26,007 nt of DNA from a virus. Positions 1,005 to 22,032 of the stretch are shown one piece after another. The position numbers were made by a program, and so were the translations under genes. The stretch is from the IMG/VR virus record IMGVR_UViG_3300037517_001683, positions 1 to 26,007 of that record; one strand, 5' to 3'. The notes under the pieces were generated by a model. It was not told the DNA's origin. It saw only the letters and a list, made by a program, of their open reading frames with translations, and ran no database searches. Positions within the stretch are counted from its first letter, which is position 1. The number at the start of each line of letters is the position of its first letter.

Positions 1005-2283
1005 GCCAGCGCCCAATGAGTAAGTTCAACTGATTGCGATCATCAATAGGCCTGACCGTCTCTGAAATGTTTCCTTCCTGATCAATGTAGTTAAACTCAA
1101 AGCCAGGAAAGTGCGATTCATTCAAACCGTGAAGCTTATGATGCGGACCCCAAAAGCCTGGCGGCTCATTCATGGGCACCGTAAAGAGCAGCGTCTTGCA
1201 ATGGTTTTTGAGTTTTTGCAGGACCTCAAGACCATTATCAATATGCTCAATGACTTCAAAAGCAATCACTGTGTCGTACTGACCAAGCTCAACTTTGTTG
1301 ATGTCAGCATGCATAAACTGAGCACTTGAACTCCAGCCTTGCTCGTTGGCCACATCCACGATGATCGGGTCGTAATCAAGCCCTGTGTAGTGAATGCCTT
1401 TAGGCATAAACTGCACGCCGTAACCACTTGAGCAACCAATCTCTAAAAGGGTTGCGCCCCTCACATGCTTGGCAGCCCATTGATAGCGCGTAGTCTCCCG
1501 CGGGTAAACGGGATCGCCCTTCAAGAAGACTGCACGCTCCCAATGATTGGATAAGCGCCACCGATACCATTCAGGGTTAAAGCGTTTGGCAAGCTTGAGC
1601 GAGTTACGCAAAAAGATGTCGTGATAGTTATCCACGAGACTAGGGTCTAGCATCGTCCCCTCACCCTTGTGATAAATTGGGAACGCGCCCGTGTACTGCG
1701 TACCATCCCAATGCTTTGGCGAGCATTCAGTAACCTCAAAGCCTGCCTCTTCAGCGCGAATGCAAAACTCGGTGTCCTCACCACCACCCACACCAAAGTC
1801 CATGCTGAGTAAACCAATCTGGCTAAATACGCGCCTGCGAATCATCACGCAGAAAAACACAATGAAGTCTCGGCCTGCAGGCTCTGACGGTCCTTTGATC
1901 ACCCCTGAAATGCCACATTTTGGATTGACAAAAGGGTTGTCAAGCAAGTGCAGCCACTGACTCTTTTCCTGGGGCAGGAGCACCGTATCGTTGTTGAGCA
2001 GCACAATTTTGTCAGTGCGTGTAGCCACAATCCCAGCGTTACACGCTCCTGAATAGCCCAAGGGCTGCTCATTCCATACAACCTTGAGATGACTCTCAAA
2101 CCCGATGCTGGCAAAGTGCTGCGTCAGTTCATCCAGATAGACTTTTGTATTATCCGTACAGCCATTGGCCGATATGACCAACTCAACATCGGTCATGTCG
2201 GTGTACTTGAAGATGGACTCTAGGCAGGGCTTGAGCAGGTCCTCACAATGGTTGTAAGTGGGTATAACAATTGAATACTTCAT
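997..2283 (-). CDS. Glycosyltransferase family 2 - SAM methyltransferase fusion
   Basis: A 428-aa two-domain enzyme. Residues 1 to about 220 are a GT2 glycosyltransferase: it opens with YSIVIPTYN, has the donor-binding strand ending ISANGCTDNT (37-46), an LLNNDTVLL segment (95-103) with the metal-binding acidic motif, and a GGGEDTEFC segment (166-174) that matches the usual acceptor-side acidic motif. Residues about 240-428 are a class I methyltransferase: motif I is LLEIGCSSGYG (279-289), the acidic end of strand 2 is GLDYD (301-305), and FEVIEHID (342-349) is the post-motif seen in UbiE/Methyltransf_11-type enzymes. It may therefore add and then O-methylate a sugar. Its ATG overlaps the TGA of the fibre gene (TGATG), so translation of the two is probably coupled. 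Confidence 0.88.
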   Translation of the reverse strand: MKYSIVIPTYNHCEDLLKPCLESIFKYTDMTDVELVISANGCTDNTKVYLDELTQHFASIGFESHLKVVWNEQPLGYSGACNAGIVATRTDKIVLLNNDTVLLPQEKSQWLHLLDNPFVNPKCGISGVIKGPSEPAGRDFIVFFCVMIRRRVFSQIGLLSMDFGVGGGEDTEFCIRAEEAGFEVTECSPKHWDGTQYTGAFPIYHKGEGTMLDPSLVDNYHDIFLRNSLKLAKRFNPEWYRWRLSNHWERAVFLKGDPVYPRETTRYQWAAKHVRGATLLEIGCSSGYGVQFMPKGIHYTGLDYDPIIVDVANEQGWSSSAQFMHADINKVELGQYDTVIAFEVIEHIDNGLEVLQKLKNHCKTLLFTVPMNEPPGFWGPHHKLHGLNESHFPGFEFNYIDQEGNISETVRPIDDRNQLNLLIGRWHA

Positions 2284-3926
2284 CAGAAGGTCCCACCATC
2301 TACGCCACTAGTAATTGCATTGGTGCTGCCATCCACAGCAAGTCCTGCATCTGCAAGCACTGACTGACTGCCACTTGTAGCAGCAGCAAACAGAATATAG
2401 CCAGCCGTAGCACTTGCAGTGACTGTCACCGTTGAAGGTGGCGTTCCTGAGAAGCCGCTAATACCTGAAAACCCTGAGATGCCACTGAATCCCGAAATTC
2501 CAGAAAAGCCCGAAATTCCTGAAGCGCCGGAAAACCCGCTAATGCCCGAGGCGCCTGAAAACCCACTGATACCTGAGAAGCCTGAGATGCCACTAAACCC
2601 TGACGTTCCACTGAACCCGGAGATGCCAGACGCGCCTGAAAAGCCTGATTGCCCACTGAAGCCAGAGATGCCTGAAAACCCACTCGTGCCACTAAAGCCA
2701 GAAATACCTGATGCACCTGAGAATCCTGAAAAGCCTGAAAAGCCCGAGGTGCCACTGAACCCCGAATAGCCAGAGATGCCACTAAAGCCAGAGACGCCTG
2801 AGAATCCGCTGATCCCAGAAAACCCGCTTATGCCTGAAAAGCCAGATTGGCCGCTGAATCCCGAGATTCCTGAGAAGCCAGAAATGCCTGAGAAGCCTGA
2901 GTAGCCGCTGACCCCAGAAAAGCCACTCGTACCCGAGAATCCACTCGCCCCTGAATACCCTGAAATGCCAGAGAACCCTGAAACCCCTGAAATACCGCTA
3001 AATCCGCTGATACCACTAAAGCCACTAATACCCGAAAAGCCCGAAATGCCTGAAAAACCAGAGGTGCCTGAGAAGCCGCTCGTGCCTGAAAAGCCTGAAG
3101 TACCAGAAAACCCACTCGTGCCCGAATAGCCACTGATGCCAGAAAAGCCTGAGTAGCCTGATTGGCCTGAAAAGCCACTTATTCCCGAGAATCCTGAGAT
3201 GCCTGAAGCGCCTAATGCATTAGTCCAAACACCTCCGACGACACCTTCAAACCGCGGGTAATCGATGTTGTAACGGATCATGCCGTCTTGTGGCGACGAT
3301 CTTTCAGCCGTTGTGCCTGCAGGGATCTGAACTGATCCCGTGCCTGGCAGTACAGGATCATCAGCCAATCCAATCGTTGGATTGCCGCCTACACCATCGC
3401 CGTTGGCTACATCAATTTCACTGGCCGTGCCTGTCAGCGTTAAAACACCGACGCCGCCTGCAGCGGTGCGTGACAGCAAGCCATTGCCTGAGGTGTTGGC
3501 CAGGTTAAGAACAATGCCCGAAAGCAGGATAGTTGGGTTGCCTGCAACCCCATCGCCGTCCGTAACGCTTAAACCCGTTGTTCCAGCCGCGATAGACCGC
3601 GCTGTGAGCGTTGTTGAGTTCGTCTTGACCTGAATACCCGTCCCTGCTGCTACGAGGCTTGCAGCGGCCCCAGAAAGGCTTAGAACAAGGGTTGAGCCAG
3701 CGCCGTTATCGACGAGCGATAAACCACTGCCTGAAGTTGTTAGTTGGCGCGACTGAGTTAATGAGCCTTCCGATGTAGCGGTGAGAAAACTGTAATTTGT
3801 GACAGGCGTTGCGGCAATGTCTGCAACTGTCGTTTGAACCGTAACGCCATCCTGAACAATAGGCACCGCTTCCGTACCTGCTAACGGATTAGCAATTGGA
3901 AGCTGGGTAATGGTCTGATTGGGCAT
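2283..3926 (-). CDS. Fibre-like structural protein with long Ser-Gly-X (collagen-like) repeat
   Basis: A 547-aa virion fibre candidate in three parts. Residues 1-40 (TITQLP...VPIVQDG) form an N-terminal module that also opens the 194-aa protein encoded at 5768-6352 and probably attaches the protein to the particle. Residues about 45-240 are a beta-rich region with repeated GDGVAGNPTI/GDGVGGNPTI strands. Residues 241-495 are 85 consecutive Ser-Gly-X triplets, mostly alternating SGF with SGI, SGT, SGA, SGQ or SGV. The last 52 residues are a short Ala/Thr/Ser-rich tail without a recognisable knob or chaperone domain. Glycine at every third position is collagen-like, but proline, the usual stabiliser, is absent from the repeat. 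Tail or head fibre is inferred from composition and context. The ATG lies two bases after the upstream TAG. Confidence 0.82.
   Translation of the reverse strand: MPNQTITQLPIANPLAGTEAVPIVQDGVTVQTTVADIAATPVTNYSFLTATSEGSLTQSRQLTTSGSGLSLVDNGAGSTLVLSLSGAAASLVAAGTGIQVKTNSTTLTARSIAAGTTGLSVTDGDGVAGNPTILLSGIVLNLANTSGNGLLSRTAAGGVGVLTLTGTASEIDVANGDGVGGNPTIGLADDPVLPGTGSVQIPAGTTAERSSPQDGMIRYNIDYPRFEGVVGGVWTNALGASGISGFSGISGFSGQSGYSGFSGISGYSGTSGFSGTSGFSGTSGFSGTSGFSGISGFSGISGFSGISGFSGISGVSGFSGISGYSGASGFSGTSGFSGVSGYSGFSGISGFSGISGFSGQSGFSGISGFSGISGFSGVSGFSGISGYSGFSGTSGFSGFSGFSGASGISGFSGTSGFSGISGFSGQSGFSGASGISGFSGTSGFSGISGFSGISGFSGASGISGFSGASGISGFSGISGFSGISGFSGISGFSGTPPSTVTVTASATAGYILFAAATSGSQSVLADAGLAVDGSTNAITSGVDGGTF
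2445..3206 (-). repeat. Coding tandem repeat: 85 Ser-Gly-X triplets
   Basis: The DNA encodes residues 241-494 of the fibre protein as an unbroken run of 9-bp and 18-bp units of the type TCN-GGN-TTY-TCN-GGN-ATH. Third codon positions vary widely between units, so amino-acid sequence rather than DNA sequence is conserved. This argues for selection on the protein and against a recent slippage expansion. The same stretch stays open in other frames, including a Pro-Glu-rich frame on the plus strand, which I regard as a composition effect. Confidence 0.92.
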
Positions 3927-5362: not shown

Positions 5363-5767
5363 TCACCACCCTGGGCAGTTCCAACGCTTCATGGAAGCCC
5401 TAGCCCTCGAGCCAGGCTCTGATTTGCGTGCAACAGGACCCATACGCGCACAGAATGAATCACGCCTTGGTCCTCCTTGGGGCTGCGGAGCCTTCAGGTT
5501 TGATCCTGTTTCTCGGTTGTACTTTGCCCGGCCTTTGGCGGTAAGACCCGCTCCTTGATCTGCCGGAAGTTTTTCACCACGGCCAATCGCCAGGCTCGGA
5601 CCACCGTTTTTAAGCTGTTCAGGAAGCTTTGCATACGATTTCCCTTTCACATTGGACTGCGTGTACTCTGCAGCCACATCGGGGCTAATGCCAACCTTCT
5701 TGGCAAACTTGGGATTGTTCTCAGCCGCTTTCATCAGCCGGAACTGCGCTTTAGTCTTGGCAGGCAT
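5363..5767 (-). CDS. DUF6321-like small basic phage protein
   Basis: A 134-aa, strongly basic protein. It opens MPAKTKAQFRLMKAAENNP and later has LPADQGAGLTAKGRAKYNR, then a C-terminal SFCARMGPVARKS segment and ASMKRWNCPGW. This arrangement (TAKGRAKYN, then a cysteine-containing SFCARM motif, then a KW-C end) is the pattern I associate with DUF6321, frequent in aquatic phages and of unknown function. The charge and the position between virion genes suggest nucleic-acid contact in the particle or during assembly, but that is inference. The ATG follows the upstream TAA directly (TAAATG). Confidence 0.8.
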   Translation of the reverse strand: MPAKTKAQFRLMKAAENNPKFAKKVGISPDVAAEYTQSNVKGKSYAKLPEQLKNGGPSLAIGRGEKLPADQGAGLTAKGRAKYNRETGSNLKAPQPQGGPRRDSFCARMGPVARKSEPGSRARASMKRWNCPGW

Positions 5768-6935: not shown

Positions 6936-8027
6936 CTAGCACGCGCCGCCTGCTCGCTTCTTTGCTGGTGGTGGCGATACTGTCACAGACTTCTCTGTTT
7001 CAGTCACAGCACCTTGCCCTCGGAACTTATCCCGAAGCTTGCTACCAAGCTCTTTGAATATGCTCACTGGGTTAAGTGCCTCCTCAAGATCGCGACTAGC
7101 CTTGGCTGCTGTAGCCTCTGGATCTTTTACAGGCTTGACCGTCTTATTCATCAGGTCGCGCTCGTAATTGCTCACAGGGCCAGCAGCAGCACCGCCGGCG
7201 TTGTACTTGACCTTGCCACCACGCTTGAATGTGCCCGATTGGCGATCATTGGACACAGCCGCGGATGCAGGCTTTTTGGGATAGGCTACAGGCCGGCCTG
7301 AATCAACAAGACCCCCCGTAGCGTAACCCTTTTTTGGGGCACCACCTTTCTTGTAGCCGCCGGCATTACCTAAGCGAACTTCGCCAGTCTTAGTACCAGT
7401 AACACCAGGGGGCGTTGTTGAAACATTGCCTTCAACACCACCGCCCTTGGCATAAGCCCTGCCACCATGCTTGTAGCCACCAGGTTTACCCATTACCACT
7501 TCGCCCGTCTTTTTAGGCGTGTGATGCTCACCTTCAGCCGTGTCCATCTTGGTGCTTACATAGCCCTTAGCGCCACGCTCCGATTCAGCTACAGGCAGAA
7601 TGCCACTCTTGGGCACTGCTCCACCCTTTTTGAATCCACCTTGGCCCATGACCACACCGCCGGTTTTAAGGCCTTTGTGAGCCTTGGATGCAGGCATAGA
7701 AGCATGCTTTTTAAGCTTAGCCTCAGTACCCATCATCTTTTTCATTTCGGCTGCATGTTCAGCTTTGGTTTCGCCGCCCTCTTTCATCATCGGACGATTC
7801 ATCATGGCTGCACGGCGAGCGGCCATCGATGGGCGCTTAGGTGCCATTGCTGGCATCATGCCACCTCGAGTGCCGGGTGCTGGTGCCGATGATAAGCCGC
7901 TCATAACGCCGCCGTTCATCATCTTGGGCATCTTCTTCATGCCCTTCACCATGCCGCCCTTTTTGAGCTTCAGTTCAACTGAAGGCTCAGTGGTCATCAT
8001 TTTGACCATCGGCTTAAACTGACCCAT
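6936..8027 (-). CDS. Lys/Gly/Met-rich repeat protein with GG-x-V tags
   Basis: A 363-aa, very basic protein with low-complexity composition. The N-terminal 100 residues are rich in methionine and lysine. The middle has three related repeats at residues 121-138 (KTGGVVMGQGGFKKGG...), 173-190 (KTGEVVMGKPGGYKHGG...) and 213-230 (KTGEVRLGNAGGYKKGG...), plus single tags such as LKKGGMVKG (21-29) and FKRGGKVKYNAGG (267-279). The C-terminal 75 residues look helical and end PPAKKRAGGAC. The same K/A-GG-x-V tags occur in the 1654-aa protein encoded at 15547-20511. I do not know a function; abundant positive charge next to capsid genes would suit DNA or virion-interior binding. AAAGGAACAGAA precedes the ATG. 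Confidence 0.78.
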   Translation of the reverse strand: MGQFKPMVKMMTTEPSVELKLKKGGMVKGMKKMPKMMNGGVMSGLSSAPAPGTRGGMMPAMAPKRPSMAARRAAMMNRPMMKEGGETKAEHAAEMKKMMGTEAKLKKHASMPASKAHKGLKTGGVVMGQGGFKKGGAVPKSGILPVAESERGAKGYVSTKMDTAEGEHHTPKKTGEVVMGKPGGYKHGGRAYAKGGGVEGNVSTTPPGVTGTKTGEVRLGNAGGYKKGGAPKKGYATGGLVDSGRPVAYPKKPASAAVSNDRQSGTFKRGGKVKYNAGGAAAGPVSNYERDLMNKTVKPVKDPEATAAKASRDLEEALNPVSIFKELGSKLRDKFRGQGAVTETEKSVTVSPPPAKKRAGGAC

Positions 8028-9149: not shown

Positions 9150-10067
9150 TTAGACGCCAGGCGTACCATACATGGCACGAGGATCAGTGAAGCCAACGTC
9201 ATAACGCTCAGTTGCCTTGTAGCGCATGGTGTCGGTTTCAAAGTCACCTTCCATGGTCTTCTCAAGGCGACGACGCATCATGAGCTTCATGCCCTCAGGC
9301 GCATCGGTCTGGACCCACCATGCAGTTGCTGAAGTCAAACGTGACAAGACAGCAGCACCCTCATCAAGAAGTCCGATGGACTTGATGGGGTTGATGTCGT
9401 TGTTTGCCTGACCGGCACGCAAGACGGACTTCAACAGCACTTCTGCCTGGAAGATATTGCCAGGAGCAACGACAAGCTGTCGTGGCACGAGGCGAATCTT
9501 TTTCCCGTTGTTGTCTACTGCCTGACGGATCTGGATGAGCATTTGCTCAAGCGATGTCTGGCTGAGAACAGCAGCGGTGGTCAGCAGGTTGCTGAAAGTG
9601 CCATTCACGATGGGGTGCGAAGCACTGTTAAGTGCCACACCGTCGCCACCAGCATACTGACCGCCCGTGAAGGCGTTGTTCAGGATGTTGGCGCACAGGG
9701 TTTCCTTGGTTTCAATCAAGGACTGTGCCAAGTGACGGGCATAGACCTGACCGATACGGATATGGTCGCCATCTTCAACAAGCACTTTGGTCAGTGCGAA
9801 GGCCAGGCCATACACACTGTAAACGTAACGCTTGAGGAAGAGCACGCCACCTTGCTGATAGGTCACCGGGGTGCCATCAGGAAGCTGAGGTGCTGCGCCA
9901 AAGCCGTAAAGGACCGGCTCTTCATGGTAGTTGCGTGGAATGCCTTGTTGCTCGCGGAAAACACGCGACCACTCGTCGGCACGCTGATCATAGACGCCAT
10001 CGAAGCACTCGTTGAGGATAGGCTCAACAATGCTCCGAAAGTCCGTACTGCGCATTGGGGCTGCCAT
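9150..10067 (-). CDS. Major capsid protein
   Basis: A 305-aa protein that I read as the HK97-fold major capsid protein. Supporting segments are EEPVLYGFGAAPQLPDG near the N-terminus, an E-loop-like stretch, a long helix with LAQSLIETKETLCANILNNA (about 114-133), GGDGVALNSASHPIV, LVPRQLVVAPGNIFQAEVLL, and the C-terminal TDAPEGMKLMMRRRLEKTME, GDFETDTMRYKATERYDVGF and FTDPRAMYG. The FETD...RYKA.ERYDVGF ending is characteristic of capsid proteins in this group. AAGGAGGGCTAACAA upstream of the ATG is one of the strongest ribosome binding sites here, as expected for the most abundant protein. Order scaffold - decoration - capsid also fits. Confidence 0.88.
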   Translation of the reverse strand: MAAPMRSTDFRSIVEPILNECFDGVYDQRADEWSRVFREQQGIPRNYHEEPVLYGFGAAPQLPDGTPVTYQQGGVLFLKRYVYSVYGLAFALTKVLVEDGDHIRIGQVYARHLAQSLIETKETLCANILNNAFTGGQYAGGDGVALNSASHPIVNGTFSNLLTTAAVLSQTSLEQMLIQIRQAVDNNGKKIRLVPRQLVVAPGNIFQAEVLLKSVLRAGQANNDINPIKSIGLLDEGAAVLSRLTSATAWWVQTDAPEGMKLMMRRRLEKTMEGDFETDTMRYKATERYDVGFTDPRAMYGTPGV

Positions 10068-11261: not shown

Positions 11262-12236
11262 CTAGGCTCGTTTCTGTTGCTGTTGTTTCGCATACTGGGC
11301 AATGATCCGATTTCTTGCTTTCTCGTCATCCCACAAACCAGCGTCTTTGATAGCTTTAACCTGCTCGGGTTCAAGCATGAAGACTTGGCGACCACCTGCT
11401 GCCGCCGCTGATTCGCGACCAGTATTTGATTGCATATATCGGGGCCTATTTTTAGACGCAGAACCTCCTTCTGCTTGATTGTATCGGTTGGGTAGGTGTT
11501 GACGCAAGCGTCTATCTAACTCTTGCCAATACTGCTCCTCGGCAGGGTCCCAGCCCTGGCGCACCATGTCCTCATCAATCTCTTTGGTGAGGCGACTATC
11601 AAGGTCTCCCATGTTGGGATCAAACCATGGATTGCGCTGCTGCCAACGCTGAGCGAAGTTGGCAATCTTAGGATTTGGAAGACTTTGTTGTGTGCGCGGC
11701 TGTGCGGCAACCTTCTTCAGATTTTGTAACGCTTCAAGCTTTTGCCGGGCGTCGTACCACATCTCCTGAGCTTTGGTGAAGCCATCACCGTCTTGCTCAG
11801 TTGTGGCTTGTGACATCTTGATCTTGGCATACTCTAGGCTGGTAGCCGCCTGTCGTATGGCCTCGTCCATTTGAGCCAGTTCGCCGGCATGGGTCTTGCG
11901 CTCAATGACTGCCAGGCGCTGCAGCAACTCTTCGTTCTGACGTTGCAGCATGGACAGGCGGTGATCTTTTTCGATCTGATGCTGCTTGGCTGACTCACGC
12001 TTAGCCCGACGCCGAGCACGCTTGGCAGCACGAATCGCATCCGTATCGTCTTGATGATCGGCATCATCGTCACTCGCATCGGGTTGAGCATTATCTTGCG
12101 CCTGATAACTTTCTTGCTGCGGTGCATCATTATCATCATCTTGAGGCTCAGCATCACCGGGCATCTCAACGACAACCGAGCCATCAGGTTCTTCCTTGAT
12201 GGCAAGGACTTCATCTTCTTTGTTCTCGGTACTCAT
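11262..12236 (-). CDS. Probable scaffolding protein
   Basis: A 324-aa protein with the composition of a phage head scaffold. The first 67 residues are very acidic and disordered (Asp, Glu, Gln), followed by a basic cluster RAAKRARRRAKRESAK (69-84), a long predicted coiled coil from about 88 to 180 (MLQRQNEELLQRLAVIERK), then a folded part with NFAQRWQQRNPWFDPN and YWQELDRRLRQHLPN, and a C-terminal helix ending in glutamines and KRA. Its position between portal and capsid, overlapping the GroES-like gene by ATGA, supports the call. Scaffolds are poorly conserved, so this rests on architecture and not on a motif. Confidence 0.7.
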   Translation of the reverse strand: MSTENKEDEVLAIKEEPDGSVVVEMPGDAEPQDDDNDAPQQESYQAQDNAQPDASDDDADHQDDTDAIRAAKRARRRAKRESAKQHQIEKDHRLSMLQRQNEELLQRLAVIERKTHAGELAQMDEAIRQAATSLEYAKIKMSQATTEQDGDGFTKAQEMWYDARQKLEALQNLKKVAAQPRTQQSLPNPKIANFAQRWQQRNPWFDPNMGDLDSRLTKEIDEDMVRQGWDPAEEQYWQELDRRLRQHLPNRYNQAEGGSASKNRPRYMQSNTGRESAAAAGGRQVFMLEPEQVKAIKDAGLWDDEKARNRIIAQYAKQQQQKRA

Positions 12237-12673
12237 AAGAACGCCCTCGTCTCTAATGGGTTGCCCGTGATCTTGGCAATCACTTCATGGTCATTGATGA
12301 TCATGAAAAGTGCCGGATCTTCGTTATAGTCCTCGCCGGGCACTTTGACTTCCCAGCGATCACCGCCCCACTTAGGTACGCGGATAAAGTCACCGATCTT
12401 GCACCAGGCACCTTCTGGCCATGGTTCCATCGAATCACGCTTGCAAAATGCAAGTGCGCCCATGTCGATTACTTTTCCGATTTGGGTGTTCCACTTCTCT
12501 GTTTCTTTGGTCTCTTCGACCAGCACAATGCCTGCTTTGGTGGTTTTTTTCTTGGAGCGACGGATCTGTACCATCACACGGCCACCAAGAGGTTTCGCAC
12601 CAGGATCTACGCTTGGAAATGCCCAAGCCATCTCAGCGTCGTCAGACGCTACTGGTTCATTCATCTTCATCAT
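12233..12673 (-). CDS. GroES-like co-chaperonin
   Basis: A 146-aa protein containing a cpn10 (GroES) domain from about residue 26 to 137: KPLGGRVMVQI is the first strand, KKTTKAGIVLVEETKETEK corresponds to the mobile loop and following strand, IGKVIDMG is the second strand, KIGDFIRVPKWGG the conserved GD-V turn, and ALFMIINDHEVIAKIT the C-terminal strand. Phage GroES analogues such as T4 Gp31 cap the host GroEL so that the capsid protein can fold; no GroEL gene is in the window. The ATG lies within the end of the upstream 61-aa gene (17-bp overlap); an alternative ATG at 12664 is possible. An insert with CKRDSMEPWPEG (77-88) is longer than in cellular GroES. Confidence 0.8.
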   Translation of the reverse strand: MMKMNEPVASDDAEMAWAFPSVDPGAKPLGGRVMVQIRRSKKKTTKAGIVLVEETKETEKWNTQIGKVIDMGALAFCKRDSMEPWPEGAWCKIGDFIRVPKWGGDRWEVKVPGEDYNEDPALFMIINDHEVIAKITGNPLETRAFL

Positions 12674-12842: not shown

Positions 12843-13006
12843 TTTTTCTTATTTAGATTCGATAAGCCTCCTTTGTTTTGATTAGCAGGTTTTGGTGCGC
12901 TGCCTTTGGATTGCAAGCTCGTGCCATCAAGGGCTGCGCCCATGGCAATACGCTTGTGATAAGGCACAGCTTCCAGGTCTTTGAGGTTATTGGATGGTTG
13001 GGCCAC
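12839..13006 (-). CDS. Small basic unknown protein, GTG start
   Basis: A 55-aa gene that fills the apparent gap after the portal gene. A perfect ribosome binding site AGGAGG lies five bases before the GTG, inside the last codons of the portal gene. The protein begins (M)AQPSNNLKDLEAVPYHKRIA and ends NKGGLSNLNKKK; the second half is Ser/Lys/Asn-rich and probably disordered. Its TGA overlaps the next GTG start (GTGA). The perfect Shine-Dalgarno sequence and the overlaps at both ends are the main evidence. Function unknown. Confidence 0.75.
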   Translation of the reverse strand: MAQPSNNLKDLEAVPYHKRIAMGAALDGTSLQSKGSAPKPANQNKGGLSNLNKKK

Positions 13007-15554
13007 GGAGACCTCCTAAGTTGCGTTGTGCTTCGTTCTGAAGCCGGATAGCAGTCTCATACTGCTCTGCCTGCAAGCGCTCATCCTGTTGGGTGAGTCG
13101 CGCAGTTTCGATGCGCTCTTTGGTGAGGTTATCTGTAGCGTTAAGCGCCACATCCAACTGATCACGCTCAGCAGCGCGTTGTTGTTCTGACTGCAGGCGA
13201 GCCATTTCCAGTTGGGCCTTTTGCTGCATGTCCTGACCTTTGAGTTGCATCTCAGCCTGATCACGCTGTGCGCGACGCTGCGTTTCAGCCATGGAAGTTT
13301 CACGCAGGACCATGGCTTCAGGCGGCAATTGCGGCTGAGGCGTAAGTTGCTGCATGGCTTGCAGTAGCTGCTGAATGAGCGGCAGAATCTGCTGGAAGGC
13401 TTGCGTGCTGTCATCTTTCACATGCTGCGACACAATGGCCAAGGTCTTATCAATCTCGGCTGTCATGCGCTGGTTCTGGTACTCCTCTTCATCCATAGGC
13501 TTACCACGCAACTTATGCAGGTAGCCTTGGCTGCGGTTCAAGTACCACAAGACCATGTGCTGCTTGATGTGCTCGAGCGCCCGCGGCAGGTAAATCGATG
13601 CCATGATGGGATTGCCACCAAACGCAGGGTTAAGCGCAAAGTCTAAGTGCGACTGGATGTGCGCCAGATGGTCCTGGTGCATGTAAGCGTAGCCATTTTG
13701 GCCAAGTGACATGGCCACATTCTCATCCACTGCGGAAAGCTCATTAGGTGACGGCGTGTTCTTGAGCAATTCGTTGTAACCAGGGATTTTTAGCTGCTTT
13801 AAAAGCCTTTCTTCGACGGCGCGTCGGTCATAGAGGTCTGGCGCTTTATCCGCACGGGCCAGTACCGCCTGAATCTGGGCCATGCGCTGGGTTTCGCTGA
13901 AAATATGCGGATCAGATACTGGTACAACGTCGCCATTAAGTTCAAAGTCAGAAGATTCAATCTCAAGATCGGCCACCACCTCGCCACGGCGCATATCTTT
14001 GAGATACCAGCGGTTTAGACGCCCCAAAACACGCAGCAAACGGGCTTGCGACGAGTGCAAACGGCTGTGAATAGCAGAAAAGACGGCTGCGCCTTGCTCA
14101 ATCAAGGCTTGTGTGGTGCCTACAGGGGCCTGTGCGGTCACATCAGCGATCTTTTCCTCGGCGGTGGTCACTACCCCCTTGGTTGCCTTATCAAGCCAGC
14201 CTAGAAGCTCGTAAAGCACCGCTGACGGCGGGTTAAACGGCATGGGCATGGCTAGTTTTTTGATGTCATCTACCCCTGGCGCAGCTTCAATCTCAACAAC
14301 CTGCGTAATATCGACTTGCTGAGACTGCCCTGAGACCTTGGCGCTCTTAAACTTTAGTAGTGCCGGGGCATTATTGATGTGCGCCGAGTCTAAAAGTGCT
14401 CGTAAGGTGCCTGTAAGGGCAGCAGACAGGCCACCAATCAGGTGGGGCATGCCGATAGCATAAGCACCGCGCCACGGGATAAATTTATATTCGATAACCC
14501 AGTCAAGCTTTGACATGGTTTCATCGCCGTCTTCCCAGTTTCGGTACAAACCAACCACTTCCGTGTCCAGTTTGTCGATCATCAGGATGTATGGGGCCAT
14601 TTCACCGTTGGCTACACCGTCTTCTTCGACCTCGAGGTAGGTGTAAGTATGGAAAACAGTTCTTAAACCGTCGTCATTCTCGTCATACTTGCGGCCTTCA
14701 ATCTTGTTGTTGGCTTTTTCTGCCCGTGTTTCATCCGGCTCCATGGTGGCGCGGATCAAATCCACCTCTTTGTACATGCCTGAGTCCACACGAGACTTAA
14801 ATTCAAACTCGGTAAGCTCGTGAATCTCTGTCGCACGCTGGGCGGTGTAGAAATTTGACGCGGCAAATGGGATCAAAACCTTGTCAATGGGCAAAAACTC
14901 GGCGCAGGGACGCAGCTTTTTCTCATCCCAGTACAGTTTGAGGTACTGCGAGCCGCCAAGTGGCAGTTGCGTGAGCAATTGCTCTTGCTCGTCTTTAAAC
15001 TCTTCGATCTGCTCAGTCAGTTGCCAGTTCATCCAGTCGCGTTTGCGCTCGGCACGCTCTGTTTTTTCTTTGTCAACCTTGCCTAAGATCTTGGTTTTGA
15101 CTGGGCCATCAGGCGGGAAAAGCTCCTTGATCGCACGGCTTGCAAAATCCACGCAGGCTTCAGCCATGGCCGGGTGAACAACCTTACTTGCACCCATGAA
15201 AGTTGCACCACCAGGGGCGTCTTTGCCCATGCCTGTGCGCTTTAAACCCTCTTCGTACTGCTTATCGCGGTCTTCCCTGGCTTGTTTGTCCTTATCGATC
15301 AGCCCGATGTAACGCAAAGCCAAGGCTTGCAGCTTGACGGTGTCGATTTTGAGCGCCAGGTTTTCATAAAAGTCAGGCGATTCTTCTGGACCTTTGAGGT
15401 TATCCATCGTGACGCGCACGCGGCCATCAGGCAACTCTTCGAGTTCTGCTTGATCAGCAGGAATCTCAACCTCTAGTCCCTCTTCCATGTCCTCTTCATC
15501 TTCCATCGGGTCGATGTACCGGCCATAGTTTTGTTCGATTGGCATCTCAGGCAT
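12987..15554 (-). CDS. Portal protein
   Basis: An 855-aa protein forming the dodecameric DNA entry ring, assigned by size, position after terminase and several portal-type segments: ATFMGASKVVHPAMAEACVD, a WMNWQLTEQIEEFKDEQEQL helix, FLPIDKVLIPFAASNF, IPWRGAYAIGMPHLIGGLSA, LTGTLRALLDSAHINNAPAL, and the long C-terminal stem/barrel helices (IQQLLQAMQQLTPQPQLPPE, then about 90 residues of Gln/Glu/Arg-rich coiled coil). Length and barrel-like tail resemble P22-type portals of podoviruses. I chose the ATG at 15554: AAGGAAAGCGTT is correctly spaced, and it overlaps the upstream TGA as ATGCCTGA. A GTG eight codons earlier is in frame but lacks support. Confidence 0.85.
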   Translation of the reverse strand: MPEMPIEQNYGRYIDPMEDEEDMEEGLEVEIPADQAELEELPDGRVRVTMDNLKGPEESPDFYENLALKIDTVKLQALALRYIGLIDKDKQAREDRDKQYEEGLKRTGMGKDAPGGATFMGASKVVHPAMAEACVDFASRAIKELFPPDGPVKTKILGKVDKEKTERAERKRDWMNWQLTEQIEEFKDEQEQLLTQLPLGGSQYLKLYWDEKKLRPCAEFLPIDKVLIPFAASNFYTAQRATEIHELTEFEFKSRVDSGMYKEVDLIRATMEPDETRAEKANNKIEGRKYDENDDGLRTVFHTYTYLEVEEDGVANGEMAPYILMIDKLDTEVVGLYRNWEDGDETMSKLDWVIEYKFIPWRGAYAIGMPHLIGGLSAALTGTLRALLDSAHINNAPALLKFKSAKVSGQSQQVDITQVVEIEAAPGVDDIKKLAMPMPFNPPSAVLYELLGWLDKATKGVVTTAEEKIADVTAQAPVGTTQALIEQGAAVFSAIHSRLHSSQARLLRVLGRLNRWYLKDMRRGEVVADLEIESSDFELNGDVVPVSDPHIFSETQRMAQIQAVLARADKAPDLYDRRAVEERLLKQLKIPGYNELLKNTPSPNELSAVDENVAMSLGQNGYAYMHQDHLAHIQSHLDFALNPAFGGNPIMASIYLPRALEHIKQHMVLWYLNRSQGYLHKLRGKPMDEEEYQNQRMTAEIDKTLAIVSQHVKDDSTQAFQQILPLIQQLLQAMQQLTPQPQLPPEAMVLRETSMAETQRRAQRDQAEMQLKGQDMQQKAQLEMARLQSEQQRAAERDQLDVALNATDNLTKERIETARLTQQDERLQAEQYETAIRLQNEAQRNLGGLRGPTIQ

Positions 15555-18500
15555 AACGCTTTCCTTGTTGTAATGCACTTAAACCACTGACTTTGCCGCC
15601 CTCTTTCTTCTCAGTGCGGTAGTCAGGTAAGGCTGGGCGCTTTTTGCTTTCAAAAAATGGCATCAACTGACCCTGGCCCGTGCCGATCATGTCAAGCACA
15701 TAGTTGCGCACCACACGAGGCGTCGGATTAATGCCTTGGCCGTGTAGTGTATAAGCTACTTGCTTTTCAAGCAGGTCCAGTGCGTCCCCGCGTGGCGATG
15801 CAAGGCCGGTCAGTTCACCGCCGCCAAACCAGCGGCCAGCTTGAGCCATGCCAGCAGGCAAACCTAGCTCTTCAGCCATGGTAAGCATGTAGTTTTCTGC
15901 AGGTCCGTATTCAGTGCGGCCAAAGCCGCCTTGCTCACTGAAGTAGGGATGATACTGACTGCCCTGCGTTTGGCCTGAAGCTTCATGCACATCAAGCACA
16001 TAAGACTTACCAAAGTCACCAGCCTTTTGCGTGCCGTAGGTTGGGATCTTGTAAGAGCCTGCTGTGCCACTTTTAGCCAAGTCACGCAAGTTTAGACCGC
16101 CCTCAAGCACTTCTTTAGCGCCTTGGTAATGACCCTTGAACAAAGGCAGGCCAACGCCATACTTTTCTGCAAACAGTGCTTTCTCACGCAGCACATTTTC
16201 TTCAGTGATGGGTATGCCACGGGCATGCATGTCACGCAGGAATTGGCCACCAGCCATTTCATTTAAGATCGTATTACGGGCTGAGACAGGCGCGATGCTG
16301 TAAATAAACTCGTTGAACTTTTCTTCAGGTATGCCGCGCTCAAGTGCTGCCAGCTTGACGGGATAAAGCGATGCGTAAAAGCTTTCGCCACCTAGCGGCA
16401 AGCCACGCTTAATCATGCCTTGAATGATGGCTCGGTTGCGTGGATCTTGATAGATCTCATCGATGTAACTTAGATTGGCACGAGGTGCCTCATAGCGTGG
16501 GAATCGCGTTTGCTCAACGCCAGGGAAGCCCTCCAAAGCATACTTGATGGCCTCACGGTCAAAGGCTTGCAGTTCTGGCCGCGGTGGCTTCCAAGCCTCA
16601 GTAGGCTGGGCAAGAAACTCCTCGGCACGTTTGGCACGTTGCTCGACCACCTCAGGCACGTTGCGAAGCTTCTCGCCACGCGATGCCGTATCAGGAACGG
16701 CTACCAGTGGCCCAAACTTCTTTTCTAGCTCAGGCTTTTCTTGCGTGCGCCACTTGATGTTGCTCTCTGCAATATCGCTGGCACGCTTCTCTAGGATCTC
16801 AGGCTTGATGTTTGGGTTGTCTTTGAGGATCTGCTTGGCAACTTTGTCTCTTTCTTTTTTAAGGTCCTTAGCAGCCTGTGCAGCTTCCTTTAGGCCTCTG
16901 GCAACAGCCTTGGGTTTGTCGCCGCCCTTGGCCATATGCACAACCATGCCCTGCACATCAGGATCATCGGTAAAGCGTACCTTGCCGCCTTTGGCATAAG
17001 GCTGCACCGGTGTCTTGCCAAACATCACAGCACTGGGCTTGGTTGACTGTGGGCTGAGGTAGCCGGCATAGCCATAGTCGCGGATCAAACGCTCAAGCGC
17101 GTTGGTTGCTTCGCCAGGCTGTGCCAATCCTTTGTTTGAGCTTGCCGTCATTGGAATCCTCGTAGTCTCTCGAGCTAACAGGTTAAGCATCAAGGGATCT
17201 GCAGCCAGGTCGTATAGGTTCTCGCCCATGGCGCGATAGCGGTTAGGCCCTAAGCCAGGCTCGGGCGTAATGCCTTCACCGGCATAGAAGTAAGTCCTTG
17301 GGCGTATGGCACCAGGAAGGTCTAGGCGTGCAGCCTCTTCGCCCTTAATGCCCGTGCCATAAAACGCAGGGTCGGTTTCAGCCAGGCCTGCTTGCTTGCT
17401 GTAATGCGTCAAAGGCGTGCTCACTGTCGTGCCAGCCTCAGGCTTGATCAGTGGTCGCAGGTAGTCGGGCATGCTGCCTTCATAGCGCGGGCTCAAAAAC
17501 TCGGGCGGCAACAGCAGCGGCTTTTGTGGGGCAAACTGGAAATCATTCCATGCTTGTTTCAACTGCGCATCAATCTCTTTGACCATGTCAGTTTTGCCGC
17601 GACGATTAGCTTCATAGCGCTGCATGTTCAGTTCGTTGATGGTGCGCTTGACCATAGCGTTAAGCGGCGTGTAGTTGACCGTGCTGTTCTGGCCTCGCGT
17701 CTCTGTGCTCATTGCAAGCTGTGCCAGCGGCGAGTACATGCGACTGTGCGCAGCCCAAGCCGTCTCTTCACCCTTGGGACCAAACTCATTACCGTGAATG
17801 GCATGGCCAAAGAAGTCATGCACAGCGCGGAACTTCTCGTTCTCGTTTAGACCTGTGGCCGGATCAACAGCTTTCAGGTAAGGGTGCTCATCACCACCTT
17901 GGAAGACATACAGGTGCTTGTTGCCGTACACATCCTGCAACATCTGCTTGCTATTACGGTAGTTGCCTTCACCTGCTCGATGATACGAAAGGCTTATGGG
18001 CAGACGCTTGAACTGCTCGTCGGTTTCTTTAGCCATCTGCCGGTATGAGGCAGCTACCAACTCATCGTAGTTCTTTGCCCCTGATTGCTTGATGACATCA
18101 GGCATCTGCCTGGCGTATTGCTCAAAGATCGTTTGCTTGTAAGCAGGGTCATCGCTGGCTGCCAGCATGAACGTGCGACCAATAGGTGCCTGCTTGAAGA
18201 TGGAGCTTTCAGGAACGTCGGGCAACTCGTAAGGCTTGCCAAGCACATCCTGAACGTAAGTGTCTGCTGATCGACGAACAAAGTTCGCCGGGTCAGCCAT
18301 TACTTGCCGTACTGCTTCATCCGTAATTGGTTGCGGAACATCGCTTCCAGTTCGTCCTGTGACAGCGTATCCGGCTTGAGTCCCATCGCTTTCGAGCGTG
18401 CCTCGACGCTGGCCTGCAGGCGCTTGAGAGACGCTAGGACGGACGCGGTAGAACGGTCCTTCTGTGGTTGTTTCATAACTAACTCCTTGGCTTGGCATTG

Positions 18501-20511
18501 TGACAGGCTTTGGTGCGGTTACGTCAGGAATTTTTGCCTTGCTCGCTGTTTTTGCAACATCTTTTAATGCGGCACCCATGCCCGGCATCGACGGCATGGT
18601 CATCATTTGCGGGATGATGGGCGGGATTTTGAAGTCAGGCAGGTTCTCGAGTGCCTCTGCGATGTTCAACAGGTAATCGGTGCCTGTCTCTGTTTGCGGC
18701 AGCCTGATGTTGCCTGTGATGTATTCCTGTGAGGCTTCACGAGCGCGCTGAAGGGGTCCTGTATCGCGTGGATCGCCGCTTGCTGCAGCTTCTTTAACGA
18801 AGGTGCCTAAGGACACCGCAGGCGAGGTAAGTGCTTTGGCCACGACGGGCGCGCCAGTCAGTAGTACATCAAGGCCACCAGCAAAACGAGGCATTACCCC
18901 TTCGATGCTTTGCAGGACATTGCCCTGACCATAACCTGGGAGTGACGACACGCCACGCGTTATAGACGTTGGCAATACAGTGTCCTGGGTTTTTACGCGA
19001 TCAATAGCACGGCGCATGCCGGGTGGTAGCCTTCCACCATCCTGCATGTGGACCTCGCCGCCAGCGGCCTTGTTTAGCAAGGGCACTGAAGTGTCGTAAG
19101 TACCTTCGTTACCAAGAGCGCTCTTGATGGCGCTGGGGTTGTAGGAAACCACCTCAGCCAGTTCACCATCGCGGTATTGCATCAGACCGTCATATCCTGC
19201 GGCTCTAGCGCGTGACTCGACTTCTTTGCCGATGTAGCCTTTGTTCTCGTAGGCACGCTCAACTAAGCGAGATGCTTTATTCTCATCTAGTCCCAACTTA
19301 ACCAGTGCTTCGATCATTGGGTCGCCCTCGCCACTGATCACCAATGGGTTGCGCATCTGGGCGTAGACAGGCAAAACATGGCCCCCAGTCGATGGAGGCG
19401 CGCCATACGGAGTGGTTACAGCATAGTACCCAGCATAATCAGCCTTGGGAGTCATGTAAACGCCCGATCCAAGTGCTCCTTCCTTGCTTGGCTTAAATTG
19501 TCGAATGGCCTCCTGGCCTTTACCACCCTCTGTCGCTGTCGTGCCATGGTAAAGACGCATCTGCACTGCGCTTGGCTCGAGGAACTTGGCCAGGTTGTCT
19601 GCACGCTCTTGTGCTGACAGACCGCTCTGCTTAGTCTTAACTGCCTCTGCTGCTTGCTTGAGCGCACCCACGATCTTGCCGCCCTTAGCTTTGCTCAGCT
19701 TGACGCCGGGAACGTCTGACTTCTTAGGTGCAATGAAGAGCGATTCATAAACGTCATGAGGCATACCGCTCGACAGCGTGACACGGCCAACCACATCGCC
19801 CATGCCAAACACATCGCCACGGCTCTTAGGGCGTAGGGTGGGGTTATCGCCTGTCATTGTGTTGTACATCTCAACAGGCGTGGCGTATTCGGTTCCTAAG
19901 CCGTATTTGTGGCCCATGCCAGACTGCTCAACCGTTGCGATGAACTTGAGCCTATCAAGCAGGGGATCGCCTTCAGGCTTGTAAAGCTGGCGGCGTACCA
20001 GATTGGACTTCGTGAGCGAGCCTTGCTTGGGGCCGCCCAGGTCAGGCTCAGTCTCACCGGCTGCGCTCATGATCGGGCGGTTAGTTACCGGGTCGATGAT
20101 GACGCCCACATCCTCCATGACCTTACGGTCAAGGATCTCACCCGTCCTGGGGTTAACGAAGGCTCCTGACGGGAAGTCAGCACGGGTCATGTTGTTGGCG
20201 GCCAGGACCTTCTCAACCAGTGGCTGGACCTGAGGGAACTTCTCGGGCTGGGAGAACCAGCGGTTGGGCACCGGCACAATCGATGTGCGGCCAGGCGTTG
20301 TCAGCCGGGCTGTGATGTCCTTCTCGGGGTCAACGGTTGACTTGATCGCCGTGCGACTGGCTGTGGCTGCCTCACGCAAAGCTTCTGCGACCTTGGGCAC
20401 CTTGCCACCACCGCCAAGCTTTAAGCGTGTGCGCAGGTCAGCACCGCCGTCTGCCATCTTTACTGGACCGCCATCCTTCAAGCCCAGACGCGCTCTTAAG
20501 TCGTTAGCCAT
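15547..20511 (-). CDS. Giant mosaic (polyvalent-type) protein with two ADP-ribosyltransferase-like segments
   Basis: A 1654-aa protein between terminase and portal. Layout by residue: 1-40 glycine tags (LKDGGPVKMADGG, LGGGGKV); 70-265 unknown domain; 318-472 ADP-ribosyltransferase-like domain; 680-880 unknown; 890-950 HDFFGH-containing segment; 1032-1170 second ART-like segment; 1200-1310 basic, helical; 1310-1620 unknown domain with GDFGKSYVLDVHEASG; C-terminal tag KKEGGKVSG. GG tags at 275-281, 483-493, 1173-1178 and 1194-1198 lie between the domains. Such phage proteins, delivered into the host with DNA, are described as polyvalent proteins; this one fits in architecture, but injection is inference. 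Its last codons overlap the portal start. The ATG at 20511 has GGCGAAGCGGG upstream, a weak site. Confidence 0.82.
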   Translation of the reverse strand: MANDLRARLGLKDGGPVKMADGGADLRTRLKLGGGGKVPKVAEALREAATASRTAIKSTVDPEKDITARLTTPGRTSIVPVPNRWFSQPEKFPQVQPLVEKVLAANNMTRADFPSGAFVNPRTGEILDRKVMEDVGVIIDPVTNRPIMSAAGETEPDLGGPKQGSLTKSNLVRRQLYKPEGDPLLDRLKFIATVEQSGMGHKYGLGTEYATPVEMYNTMTGDNPTLRPKSRGDVFGMGDVVGRVTLSSGMPHDVYESLFIAPKKSDVPGVKLSKAKGGKIVGALKQAAEAVKTKQSGLSAQERADNLAKFLEPSAVQMRLYHGTTATEGGKGQEAIRQFKPSKEGALGSGVYMTPKADYAGYYAVTTPYGAPPSTGGHVLPVYAQMRNPLVISGEGDPMIEALVKLGLDENKASRLVERAYENKGYIGKEVESRARAAGYDGLMQYRDGELAEVVSYNPSAIKSALGNEGTYDTSVPLLNKAAGGEVHMQDGGRLPPGMRRAIDRVKTQDTVLPTSITRGVSSLPGYGQGNVLQSIEGVMPRFAGGLDVLLTGAPVVAKALTSPAVSLGTFVKEAAASGDPRDTGPLQRAREASQEYITGNIRLPQTETGTDYLLNIAEALENLPDFKIPPIIPQMMTMPSMPGMGAALKDVAKTASKAKIPDVTAPKPVTMPSQGVSYETTTEGPFYRVRPSVSQAPAGQRRGTLESDGTQAGYAVTGRTGSDVPQPITDEAVRQVMADPANFVRRSADTYVQDVLGKPYELPDVPESSIFKQAPIGRTFMLAASDDPAYKQTIFEQYARQMPDVIKQSGAKNYDELVAASYRQMAKETDEQFKRLPISLSYHRAGEGNYRNSKQMLQDVYGNKHLYVFQGGDEHPYLKAVDPATGLNENEKFRAVHDFFGHAIHGNEFGPKGEETAWAAHSRMYSPLAQLAMSTETRGQNSTVNYTPLNAMVKRTINELNMQRYEANRRGKTDMVKEIDAQLKQAWNDFQFAPQKPLLLPPEFLSPRYEGSMPDYLRPLIKPEAGTTVSTPLTHYSKQAGLAETDPAFYGTGIKGEEAARLDLPGAIRPRTYFYAGEGITPEPGLGPNRYRAMGENLYDLAADPLMLNLLARETTRIPMTASSNKGLAQPGEATNALERLIRDYGYAGYLSPQSTKPSAVMFGKTPVQPYAKGGKVRFTDDPDVQGMVVHMAKGGDKPKAVARGLKEAAQAAKDLKKERDKVAKQILKDNPNIKPEILEKRASDIAESNIKWRTQEKPELEKKFGPLVAVPDTASRGEKLRNVPEVVEQRAKRAEEFLAQPTEAWKPPRPELQAFDREAIKYALEGFPGVEQTRFPRYEAPRANLSYIDEIYQDPRNRAIIQGMIKRGLPLGGESFYASLYPVKLAALERGIPEEKFNEFIYSIAPVSARNTILNEMAGGQFLRDMHARGIPITEENVLREKALFAEKYGVGLPLFKGHYQGAKEVLEGGLNLRDLAKSGTAGSYKIPTYGTQKAGDFGKSYVLDVHEASGQTQGSQYHPYFSEQGGFGRTEYGPAENYMLTMAEELGLPAGMAQAGRWFGGGELTGLASPRGDALDLLEKQVAYTLHGQGINPTPRVVRNYVLDMIGTGQGQLMPFFESKKRPALPDYRTEKKEGGKVSGLSALQQGKRYA
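17002..17418 (-). other. Second ART-like segment of the giant protein
   Basis: Residues about 1032-1170. The series TPLTHYSKQAGL, DPAFYGTGIKGEEAARL, RTYFYAGEG, NLYDLAADP and RLIRDYGYAGYL matches the LTHxS...DPaf.GTG..G.E pattern recurring in phage polyvalent and MuF-associated proteins, where it is taken as a divergent ADP-ribosyltransferase-like fold. The catalytic residues are not obvious to me. Confidence 0.5.
17803..17820 (-). other. HDFFGH putative metal-binding motif in the giant protein
   Basis: Codons 898-903 read H-D-F-F-G-H within a conserved-looking stretch that continues GNEFGPKGEETAWAAH and TETRGQNSTVNY. The H-x4-H spacing is that of the iron ligands in biopterin-dependent aromatic amino acid hydroxylases (HDxFGH in bacterial PheH), but the surroundings differ, so metal binding is only a proposal. 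Confidence 0.45.
19096..19566 (-). other. ADP-ribosyltransferase-like domain of the giant protein
   Basis: Residues about 316-472. MRLYHGTTATEGG (318-330) supplies the first-strand Y-H-G; GALGSGVYMTPKADYAGYYA (345-364) is the G-x-G-Y-[MF]-T block; HVLPVYAQMRNPLVI follows; and the end is AGYDGLMQYRDGELAEVVSY with NPSAIKSALGNEGTYD. This is the H-Y-[E/Q] plan of the phage ART-PolyVal-type family. E450 or E453 would be the third catalytic position. Confidence 0.72.
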
Positions 20512-20550: not shown

Positions 20551-22032
20551 TTAAGTCGCATAGGGATTGGTCCTTGTCACGCCAGCGTCGATCAGGTCTT
20601 CAGGGTCATAGTCGTCAGGCGGTGGCGGGTCGATGCTGAGCCAGCCGGCATCGCGAAGGTAGCGCATGGCCTGGCTGAAGGCGTCCACAAAGTCATCATG
20701 CGTAGTTTGAGGGAACGAGCAGATCTGCGTAACCATGGCCTCAGCCCAGTCGCGAACATAGCCTTCACGGTTGCTTGACTCGGGCACATACACCCGGCCA
20801 GCCTTCACGATGTTGGCCACGATGCTCAGGCGCTGGACCTTGTCGGCGTTGCCTGGGTTGTAGCTCCTGACCGGGATGTGCGCACGCTGCAGGTCCTGGA
20901 TGAGCACGATACCGGCAGCCTTGTCCTCGACCAGCACCAGGTCAACACGCTTGGCGTCTTTGCCTTCACCGAAGACGATTTCGTACTCGTCTAATACTTT
21001 AGGCTTAAGGTCAGGGTACTGCAACCGGTCTTGCCAGGCGTCGATGATGAGCACACACATGCCGCCGTCCATGGGTTTGAAGACACCGAAAGTGATCGAT
21101 GCCGTGGGATCGTTGACCGTCTTTTCGGTGTAAGCACAGTCATAGCTCTGCAAGATGAACTCGAGCTTGGGCAGGGGCTTGTCAGCAGGCCAGAGCCTGA
21201 ACCAGTCACGCTTGACAATCCCGCCTTCTTCAGCATCGATGATCTCAGCGAAGATTTCCTGCCGGCCAAGGTTGGTGCCTTCGTAGCTGAGGATCTGCCT
21301 GCGGAAGTTCTCTGACAGGTTGTCGATGTTGGCGTAGGTCGATGCGGTGGTCAGTACGACATCATCACCTTCCCTGCTCATCAACTCGATGATCAAGTCT
21401 CGAGGCTTGGGTGTCGTTGTGCAGATCAGCCTGGTCTTCATGCCGTCCAACTTAAGACGCATACCGAATTGAATCTGATCCCAAGCTTCTTGGATGTACT
21501 CCCAGGCAGCCAACTCGTCCAGCCACCCGCCGTGAAACTGCGGCCCCCTGAAACGCTCAGGCTCCGAGGCAGGGATGCCTTTGATCAGCGAGCCGTTGGT
21601 CAAGCGTAGCTCATGCAAGGCCTTGTTGTAGTCATCGATTAGGACGGGTGGAATCACGTTCAGGAGGCCCGAATCGCCCTCGAAGCATGTGCCCCTTACG
21701 TCACTGCTCGTTGGGGCCGCCACGAGCCATCTGGTGGCTTTGTAGGACTGTGCCCACCAGCCAATCTGTTCTGCTGCAGTTCGAGTCTTGCCGGCACCGC
21801 GGCCTGCCAGCATGAGCCATATGGACCACCAATCACCGTGCGGTAGGATCTGGTGCTTGAGTGCTCGAGTGAGCCACATCATGCGCCAGGCCCAGGCGGC
21901 AGCCGCTTGTGGCTCTAGCCTGGTGTACTGCTCGCGGATCGCTGGATCTTTGAGCAGGGCCTCAAGATCACTTGTCCCCAAGTTGCCTCTTGGTCTCGAG
22001 GTTCTTGAGCATGGCGTCGAAGATGCTGACAT
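20551..22032 (-). CDS. terL: Terminase large subunit
   Basis: A 493-aa DNA-packaging motor. ATPase part: Walker A LAGRGAGKTRTA (75-86), Walker B GGWLDELAAW (168-177) with D172-E173, and the coupling motif ICTTTPKP (203-210). Nuclease part, RNase H-like (Terminase_6C type): FILQSYDCAYTEK with D298, VDLVLVEDKAAG with E369-D370, and THDDFVDAFSQAM with D446-D447. Both activities therefore look intact. The ATG at 22032 overlaps the small subunit gene by 65 bp, and its first 17 residues are Ser/Arg-rich and unlike the rest. A TTG at 21981 behind AAGAGGCAAC would give a 476-aa protein and a 14-bp overlap, and may be the true start. Confidence 0.93.
   Translation of the reverse strand: MSASSTPCSRTSRPRGNLGTSDLEALLKDPAIREQYTRLEPQAAAAWAWRMMWLTRALKHQILPHGDWWSIWLMLAGRGAGKTRTAAEQIGWWAQSYKATRWLVAAPTSSDVRGTCFEGDSGLLNVIPPVLIDDYNKALHELRLTNGSLIKGIPASEPERFRGPQFHGGWLDELAAWEYIQEAWDQIQFGMRLKLDGMKTRLICTTTPKPRDLIIELMSREGDDVVLTTASTYANIDNLSENFRRQILSYEGTNLGRQEIFAEIIDAEEGGIVKRDWFRLWPADKPLPKLEFILQSYDCAYTEKTVNDPTASITFGVFKPMDGGMCVLIIDAWQDRLQYPDLKPKVLDEYEIVFGEGKDAKRVDLVLVEDKAAGIVLIQDLQRAHIPVRSYNPGNADKVQRLSIVANIVKAGRVYVPESSNREGYVRDWAEAMVTQICSFPQTTHDDFVDAFSQAMRYLRDAGWLSIDPPPPDDYDPEDLIDAGVTRTNPYAT

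Follow-up and report, generated by a model that had tools for sequence, protein, structure and literature searches.

A modular, cysteine-free protein encoded between the terminase and portal genes of a freshwater phage: a candidate injected effector

The window analysed here is the whole of a 26,007-nucleotide stretch (positions 1 to 26,007 of IMG/VR record IMGVR_UViG_3300037517_001683) from a freshwater phage with a podovirus-type genome. On its minus strand, at 15547-20511, an open reading frame (ORF) with an ATG start encodes a 1654-amino-acid (aa) protein. The results indicate that this protein consists of disparate modules that recur, reshuffled, at the same genomic position in related phages; that it carries a recurring peptide tag, the KGG tag (consensus KxGGx[VI]xMxxGG), which is also concentrated in one other gene, that of a KGG-repeat protein; and that it contains no cysteine (Cys). 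We conclude that the 1654-aa protein is probably a polyvalent protein that enters the host as injected effector cargo.

Position and modules of the 1654-aa protein

The initial annotation had placed the ORF between terminase and portal, and this is confirmed: the minus-strand order is TerS, TerL, the ORF, portal, GroES-like, scaffold-like and capsid genes, with TerL and portal flanking the ORF (Table 1) and a few bases shared by the stop of the ORF and the start of portal. Identical or near-identical copies occur in three other assemblies (complete in L001, cut by contig ends in L005 and L013), and the ORF is therefore not an assembly artefact. We refer to the TerL-portal interval as the slot.

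Two segments had been called ADP-ribosyltransferase (ART)-like, and both assignments hold. Module B scores 54.9 bits against Pfam PF18760 (ART-PolyVal; cut-off 31.2, E 2e-14), and its model matches, in Foldseek, 6kyf (AcrIF11) and tankyrases, that is, PARP ART folds. In an alignment of module B, H322 is present in 17 of 18 sequences, the strand-2 residue is Y, W or F, and two candidate D residues lie near 441 and 473. Module E, for which no sequence-family match was found, has a model that matches the ART AcrIF11 (6kyf) with probability 0.98 and E 0.08. The anti-CRISPR AcrIF11 (6kyf; PMC12421852) is the closest solved fold for both modules; it differs in being small and single-domain and, in the parts of that source considered here, is not described as virion-packaged. 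The modelled resemblance is one of fold only, and the target need not be common. NCBIfam yielded no match to the 1654-aa protein.

Three further segments, at aa 70-265, 680-880 and 1310-1620, had been listed as domains without a name. They are real domains, because each recurs independently in other phages. The first is equivalent to module A, the third to module F and the second to the initial part of module D, where it forms one domain with the HDFFGH segment that had also been listed and that is present at aa 898-903. The domain containing both matches PHROG 3170 (E 4e-17), a family without assigned function. Within the slot family, H898, D899, H903, E915, E916, H922, E937, Q941 and N942 of module D are invariant or nearly so, and across phages of very different hosts the elements N, FR, HD..GH, GE, H and ET.GQN are kept. 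At least 572 stretches encoding module D were found in a scan of IMG/VR; the module also occurs in mycobacteriophages and on actinobacterial plasmids, where homologues (NZ_CP038257, NC_009453, NZ_CP060403, NZ_CP064874) are annotated as hypothetical. The model of module D is helical, with good confidence along most of the chain (block means mostly 76-97); Foldseek found no PDB fold match, and its structural matches are viral only, several of them named polyvalent or structural. Very strong conservation in module D thus goes together with a fold for which no solved counterpart was found. An aromatic amino acid hydroxylase, an idea taken from bacterial PAH, was rejected for module D and HDFFGH, with no match in Foldseek pdb or in an hmmsearch of PDB.

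Module E directly follows module D in the slot family wherever the contig permits the check. Distant relatives of module F match PHROG 3842, which adjoins the module D gene in mycobacteriophage Alice (gp98/gp99) and Gordonia phage Skog (gp165/gp166); module D and an F-like domain are therefore associated over great distances. A host search of GTDB genomes found no relative of module F, and an HhH-glycosylase, considered for a G..K..D..H pattern, is not supported, the lysine not being among the conserved residues. In A-clade relatives, module A lies at the C-terminal end of the first ORF in the slot; its predicted structure was too poor to use.

Module shuffling, the KGG tag and the KGG-repeat protein

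In relatives with both flanks on the contig, the slot contains one to three ORFs, encoding proteins of 0.8-2.5 thousand aa (kaa) in which modules are lost, gained, split or permuted; slot position and module shuffling were seen in dozens of loci. No close isolate with a filled slot was found in the phage collection that was searched. ORF sizes include 1184 aa (L006), 1418 (L002), 2038 (L004), 2248 (L007) and 2551 (L003), and size differences in otherwise close phages are nested N-terminal additions. The module order is A-B-C-D-E-F in the window, B-F-D-E in L137, D-E-B|F in L040 and B-D-E-F in L130; in L014 and L018 the slot ORFs are split, one ending in module A and the next starting with module B; and slot proteins of relatives also contain a GNAT domain. 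In phage ctpbd312 (TerL 68%), the slot protein (890 aa) is unrelated but still contains tags. Caulobacter phage RW (capsid protein 77%) and G009 (76%) have an empty slot, with the portal gene directly after TerL and, in phage RW, one tRNA between them.

The seams of this shuffling lie close to KGG tags. Homology with the window DNA is lost at aa 274-279 (in A-only relatives), 493-499 and 1166-1197 (for D-E homology), and tags are located at 277, 484-493 and 1175. For 77 non-redundant proteins, 91 left breakpoints (25.8 expected) and 69 right breakpoints (14.5 expected) lie no more than 10 aa from a GGx[VI]. This establishes an association but no cause, since breakpoints in related pairs depend on one another and linkers are where alignments often end. 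Between modules, the tag DNA (GGC GCA GTC CAC ATG CAA GAC GGT GG) is near-identical. Slot proteins contain 623 GGx[VI] versus 173 in shuffles, and 112 of 143 complete slot ORFs have GGx[VIAL] within the last 30 residues.

Only two window genes are clearly tag-enriched: that of the 1654-aa protein (9 GGx[VIL] versus 2.9) and that of the 363-aa KGG-repeat protein (6 versus 1.1), which is basic and encoded downstream of the capsid gene. In six homologues of the KGG-repeat protein, the N-terminus (MGQFKPMVKM.T.EP...LKLKKGG.V) does not vary, nor does the last residue, which is Cys, and the tag recurs 5-9 times in the gene across phages. In four relatives of 55-57 kb, the sole other equally tag-rich gene is the homologue of this gene (7, 5, 7 and 6 versus 0.4-0.7). 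The protein was found in 8 of the 9 records first searched and in 8 of 14 more; as judged by locus coordinates, the six misses are three contigs that stop before the interval and three distant phages. Phage ctpbd312 encodes a 449-aa repeat protein alongside its non-homologous, tagged slot protein, and no repeat protein was found in Caulobacter phage RW or G009, in which the slot is empty. This pattern of presence and absence, with only two negative genomes, fits what would be expected of a cargo and its loader.

A longer-form DNA pattern of the tag is in frame within a long ORF in essentially all recovered loci, in many unrelated proteins, and the tag therefore appears to occur generally in the large, probably virion-borne proteins of aquatic phages; of ten such loci scanned, two have tape-measure or lytic-tail similarity. 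GGx[VI]xxMQxGG also occurs in unrelated marine phage proteins of 500-900 aa (L159-L277), for example at aa 55 in QMARGGVVKMQEGG. No phage paper with the tag string MQEGG turned up in a search of the literature.

The slot family makes the question of how polyvalent proteins are chosen for packaging and pass through short tails testable, since it provides candidates for the signal and the receptor, natural exchanges of cargo, and empty-slot relatives as controls. In phage P1, the inner-capsid proteins Hdf and DarA are required to load other Dar proteins (PMC12810830); by analogy, KGG tags might dock cargo onto the basic KGG-repeat protein, a suggestion we regard as tentative. The fuller proposal is two-part loading, in which the tag would dock any module, homologous or not, on an in-head repeat hub, effectors would therefore be exchangeable through recombination at the tag, and other marine and freshwater virion proteins would carry the same tag; we consider this possible, and somewhat doubtful as a whole. 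If tag-dependent loading is real, the tags could serve to send chosen proteins into laboratory bacteria.

To an alternative that concerns the loading step and not injection, namely that the tags are mere flexible linkers and recombination seams without docking, we give an even chance: their composition is Gly-rich, near-identical tag DNA between modules suffices to seed recombination, and BLAST alignments tend to stop in linkers, but the alternative leaves unexplained both why this tag is so strongly concentrated in one other gene and why non-homologous cargo retains tags. It is improbable that the tags are instead sites at which a protease cleaves a polyprotein into separate head proteins, an arrangement that would be compatible with later injection of the pieces. 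The location of tags between modules and at ORF ends, and the occurrence of the same modules as separate ORFs in relatives, would agree with cleavage; however, no peptidase domain was detected in the 1654-aa protein or the window genes scanned, and the repeat protein would be shredded too.

Cysteine depletion and the case for injection

The absence of Cys from the 1654-aa protein extends to the slot family, which contains 13 Cys in 101,318 aa (0.013%), with 70 of 77 proteins lacking Cys altogether; ~640 would be expected from the 0.63% Cys of other large ORFs, at which rate zero Cys in 1654 aa has a probability of ~3e-5. TerL homologues contain 1.43% Cys and portals 0.35%. Zero Cys is likewise found in the proven ejected proteins N4 vRNAP (3500 aa), gp51 and gp52 and T7 gp15 and gp16, and the likely ejection cassette of relatives, which includes an SLT transglycosylase, is equally Cys-free; tail, terminase and replication proteins, examined as controls, are not. 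For N4-like vRNAP, disulphides have been argued to hinder injection (PMC3915230). Because the depletion matches that of N4 and T7 ejected proteins, the injected-cargo reading gains independent support. We regard the depletion as the strongest evidence that the slot protein may be ejected, with scaffolds as the main caveat, and propose that a scarcity of Cys be used to recognise, from sequence, the proteins that short-tailed phages eject. Two giant Cys-free proteins, of 2987 aa (L284-L286, G004, 22267-31230; adjoining an SLT transglycosylase) and 2468 aa (L287-L289, G008, 49308-56714), are probably ejection proteins.

The initial annotation had offered two classes for the 1654-aa protein, polyvalent and ejection proteins. 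With N4 vRNAP and the N4 and T7 ejection proteins it has in common very large size, freedom from Cys, a podovirus-type genome and an expected passage through a narrow tail, but no sequence similarity was found, and its assignment as an ejection protein proper is not supported: in relatives, the probable ejection cassette, an SLT transglycosylase together with large helical proteins, is encoded in another part of the genome. The first class fits: PF18760 and disparate modules (ART modules B and E, and D, F and A) are encoded by one ORF in the TerL-portal interval, and virion genes adjoin. Phage polyvalent proteins (Iyer et al., 2017; PMC5512222, in part) similarly combine disparate domains in one large polypeptide, with a Tox-ART-HYD2-type ART, and virion genes adjoin in a terminase-portal phage. 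The 1654-aa protein differs from them in having no match to Pfam LPD or metallopeptidase domains; moreover, tags between modules, a repeat companion and near-total absence of Cys are not described for polyvalent proteins in the parts of that source considered here, and these features would set it apart from ordinary members of the class. The P1 Dar system (DarA, Hdf, DarB, DdrB; PMC12810830) provides a parallel in its large injected anti-host proteins, loaded via small inner-capsid proteins, but the P1 tail is contractile, DarB contains 9 Cys, and no homology to the 1654-aa protein was found.

Several observations weigh against injected cargo. Scaffolds are also Cys-free (T7 gp9, and the scaffold in the window phage), as is the N4 capsid protein, and depletion is therefore no proof of ejection. 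Conversely, the Cys content of DarB means that ejected polyvalent proteins need not be Cys-free, and the slot protein of ctpbd312 has 3 Cys. The empty-slot comparison comprises two genomes, and the related phages are not independent. The activity of modules B and E is unproven because the strand-2 residue of B varies and E has no clear third ART residue. No virion proteomics was found for any slot-family member, nor, in the literature, for module D-carrying mycobacteriophages or elemoC-like phages. Position inside the packaging/portal operon, initially taken to place the protein in the head, is weak by itself, because Caulobacter phage RW and G009 keep the same packaging order with an empty slot.

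The scaffold comparison raises the alternative, which we judge unlikely, of an internal head or scaffold-type morphogenesis factor whose modules hold tagged sites around the portal in assembly, with no ejection; adjacency of portal and a conserved GroES-like gene would suit such a role, as would freedom from Cys, but two ART domains, and GNAT in relatives, are unlike scaffolds, slot content is hypervariable whereas assembly factors are conserved, and related phages assemble without a slot protein. Less likely still is an unpackaged late effector that acts in the producing cell and merely sits in the late operon, as the T4 ART effectors ModA and ModB are made in the cell and not injected (PMC5512222, in part), since a cytoplasmic protein would have no reason to be Cys-free over 100 kaa and late timing is ill-suited to takeover.

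According to the injected-cargo hypothesis, effector modules on one polypeptide would be synthesised late and packaged in the head close to the portal, and would be ejected with the DNA into the host. Selection for unfolded passage via a narrow, short tail and the periplasm would lead to Cys depletion, and the cargo would refold after passage. The ART modules (B, perhaps E) would then modify host proteins by ADP-ribosylation early in infection, and module D might carry out a metal- or nucleotide-dependent step. D-E, the most conserved unit, would be the core activity, and A, B and F interchangeable extras.

Features and neighbouring genes

Table 1. Features of the 1654-aa protein and of its neighbours in the window (all on the minus strand)
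Feature	Residues (aa)	Position	Strand	Remarks
Terminase large subunit (TerL)		20551..22032	-	
Candidate modular polyvalent protein (slot polyprotein)	1654	15547..20511	-	zero Cys
Tag 1, KDGGPVKMADGG	12-23	20443..20478	-	
Module A, unnamed domain	41-275	19687..20391	-	low-confidence model
Tag 2, SKAKGGKI	273-280	19672..19695	-	
Module B, predicted ADP-ribosyltransferase (ART-PolyVal)	318-471	19099..19560	-	H322, D442 region
Tag 3, KAAGGEVHMQDGG	481-493	19033..19071	-	
Module C, linker-like	505-700	18412..18999	-	moderately hydrophobic
Module D, helical	733-990	17542..18315	-	invariant HDFFGH/E/H/ETRGQN residues
HDFFGH	898-903	17803..17820	-	H898, D899, H903 in 30/30 or 30/31
Module E, second ART-fold domain (by model)	1030-1165	17017..17424	-	
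Tag 4, PYAKGGKVR	1171-1179	16975..17001	-	
Module F, helical, unnamed domain	1250-1620	15652..16764	-	
C-terminal tag, EKKEGGKV	1634-1641	15589..15612	-	
Portal protein		12987..15554	-	without tags; PHROG portal E 6e-15
GroES-like co-chaperonin (Cpn10)		12233..12673	-	adjoins portal across family
Major capsid protein		9150..10067	-	
KGG-repeat protein	363	6936..8027	-	pI 10.2, six GGx[VI] tags

The Cpn10 gene after portal is kept also in Caulobacter phage RW. TerL homologues with large insertions, of 765-1167 aa versus the usual ~476, are encoded in L006 (3136-5481), L012 (2132-4477), L041, L043, L054 and L105; the insertions are probably inteins or homing elements, and those in L006 and L012 split the nuclease domain ~45 residues from the end. 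In Caulobacter phage RW (L293, 2445-5247), a methyltransferase gene separates two TerL-like ORFs, and a further TerL fragment is located at the opposite genome end.

Elsewhere in the window, 2283-3926 encodes a collagen-like fibre protein with GFSG[IT]S-type repeats and without KGG tags, and 5363-5767 encodes a protein of 134 aa that has a SKAQ-like motif at its N-terminus and the motif SFCARMGP...WNC at its C-terminus. In PHROGs, the latter motif is found at the termini of several large phage proteins that are unrelated, and it is thus another recurring end tag.
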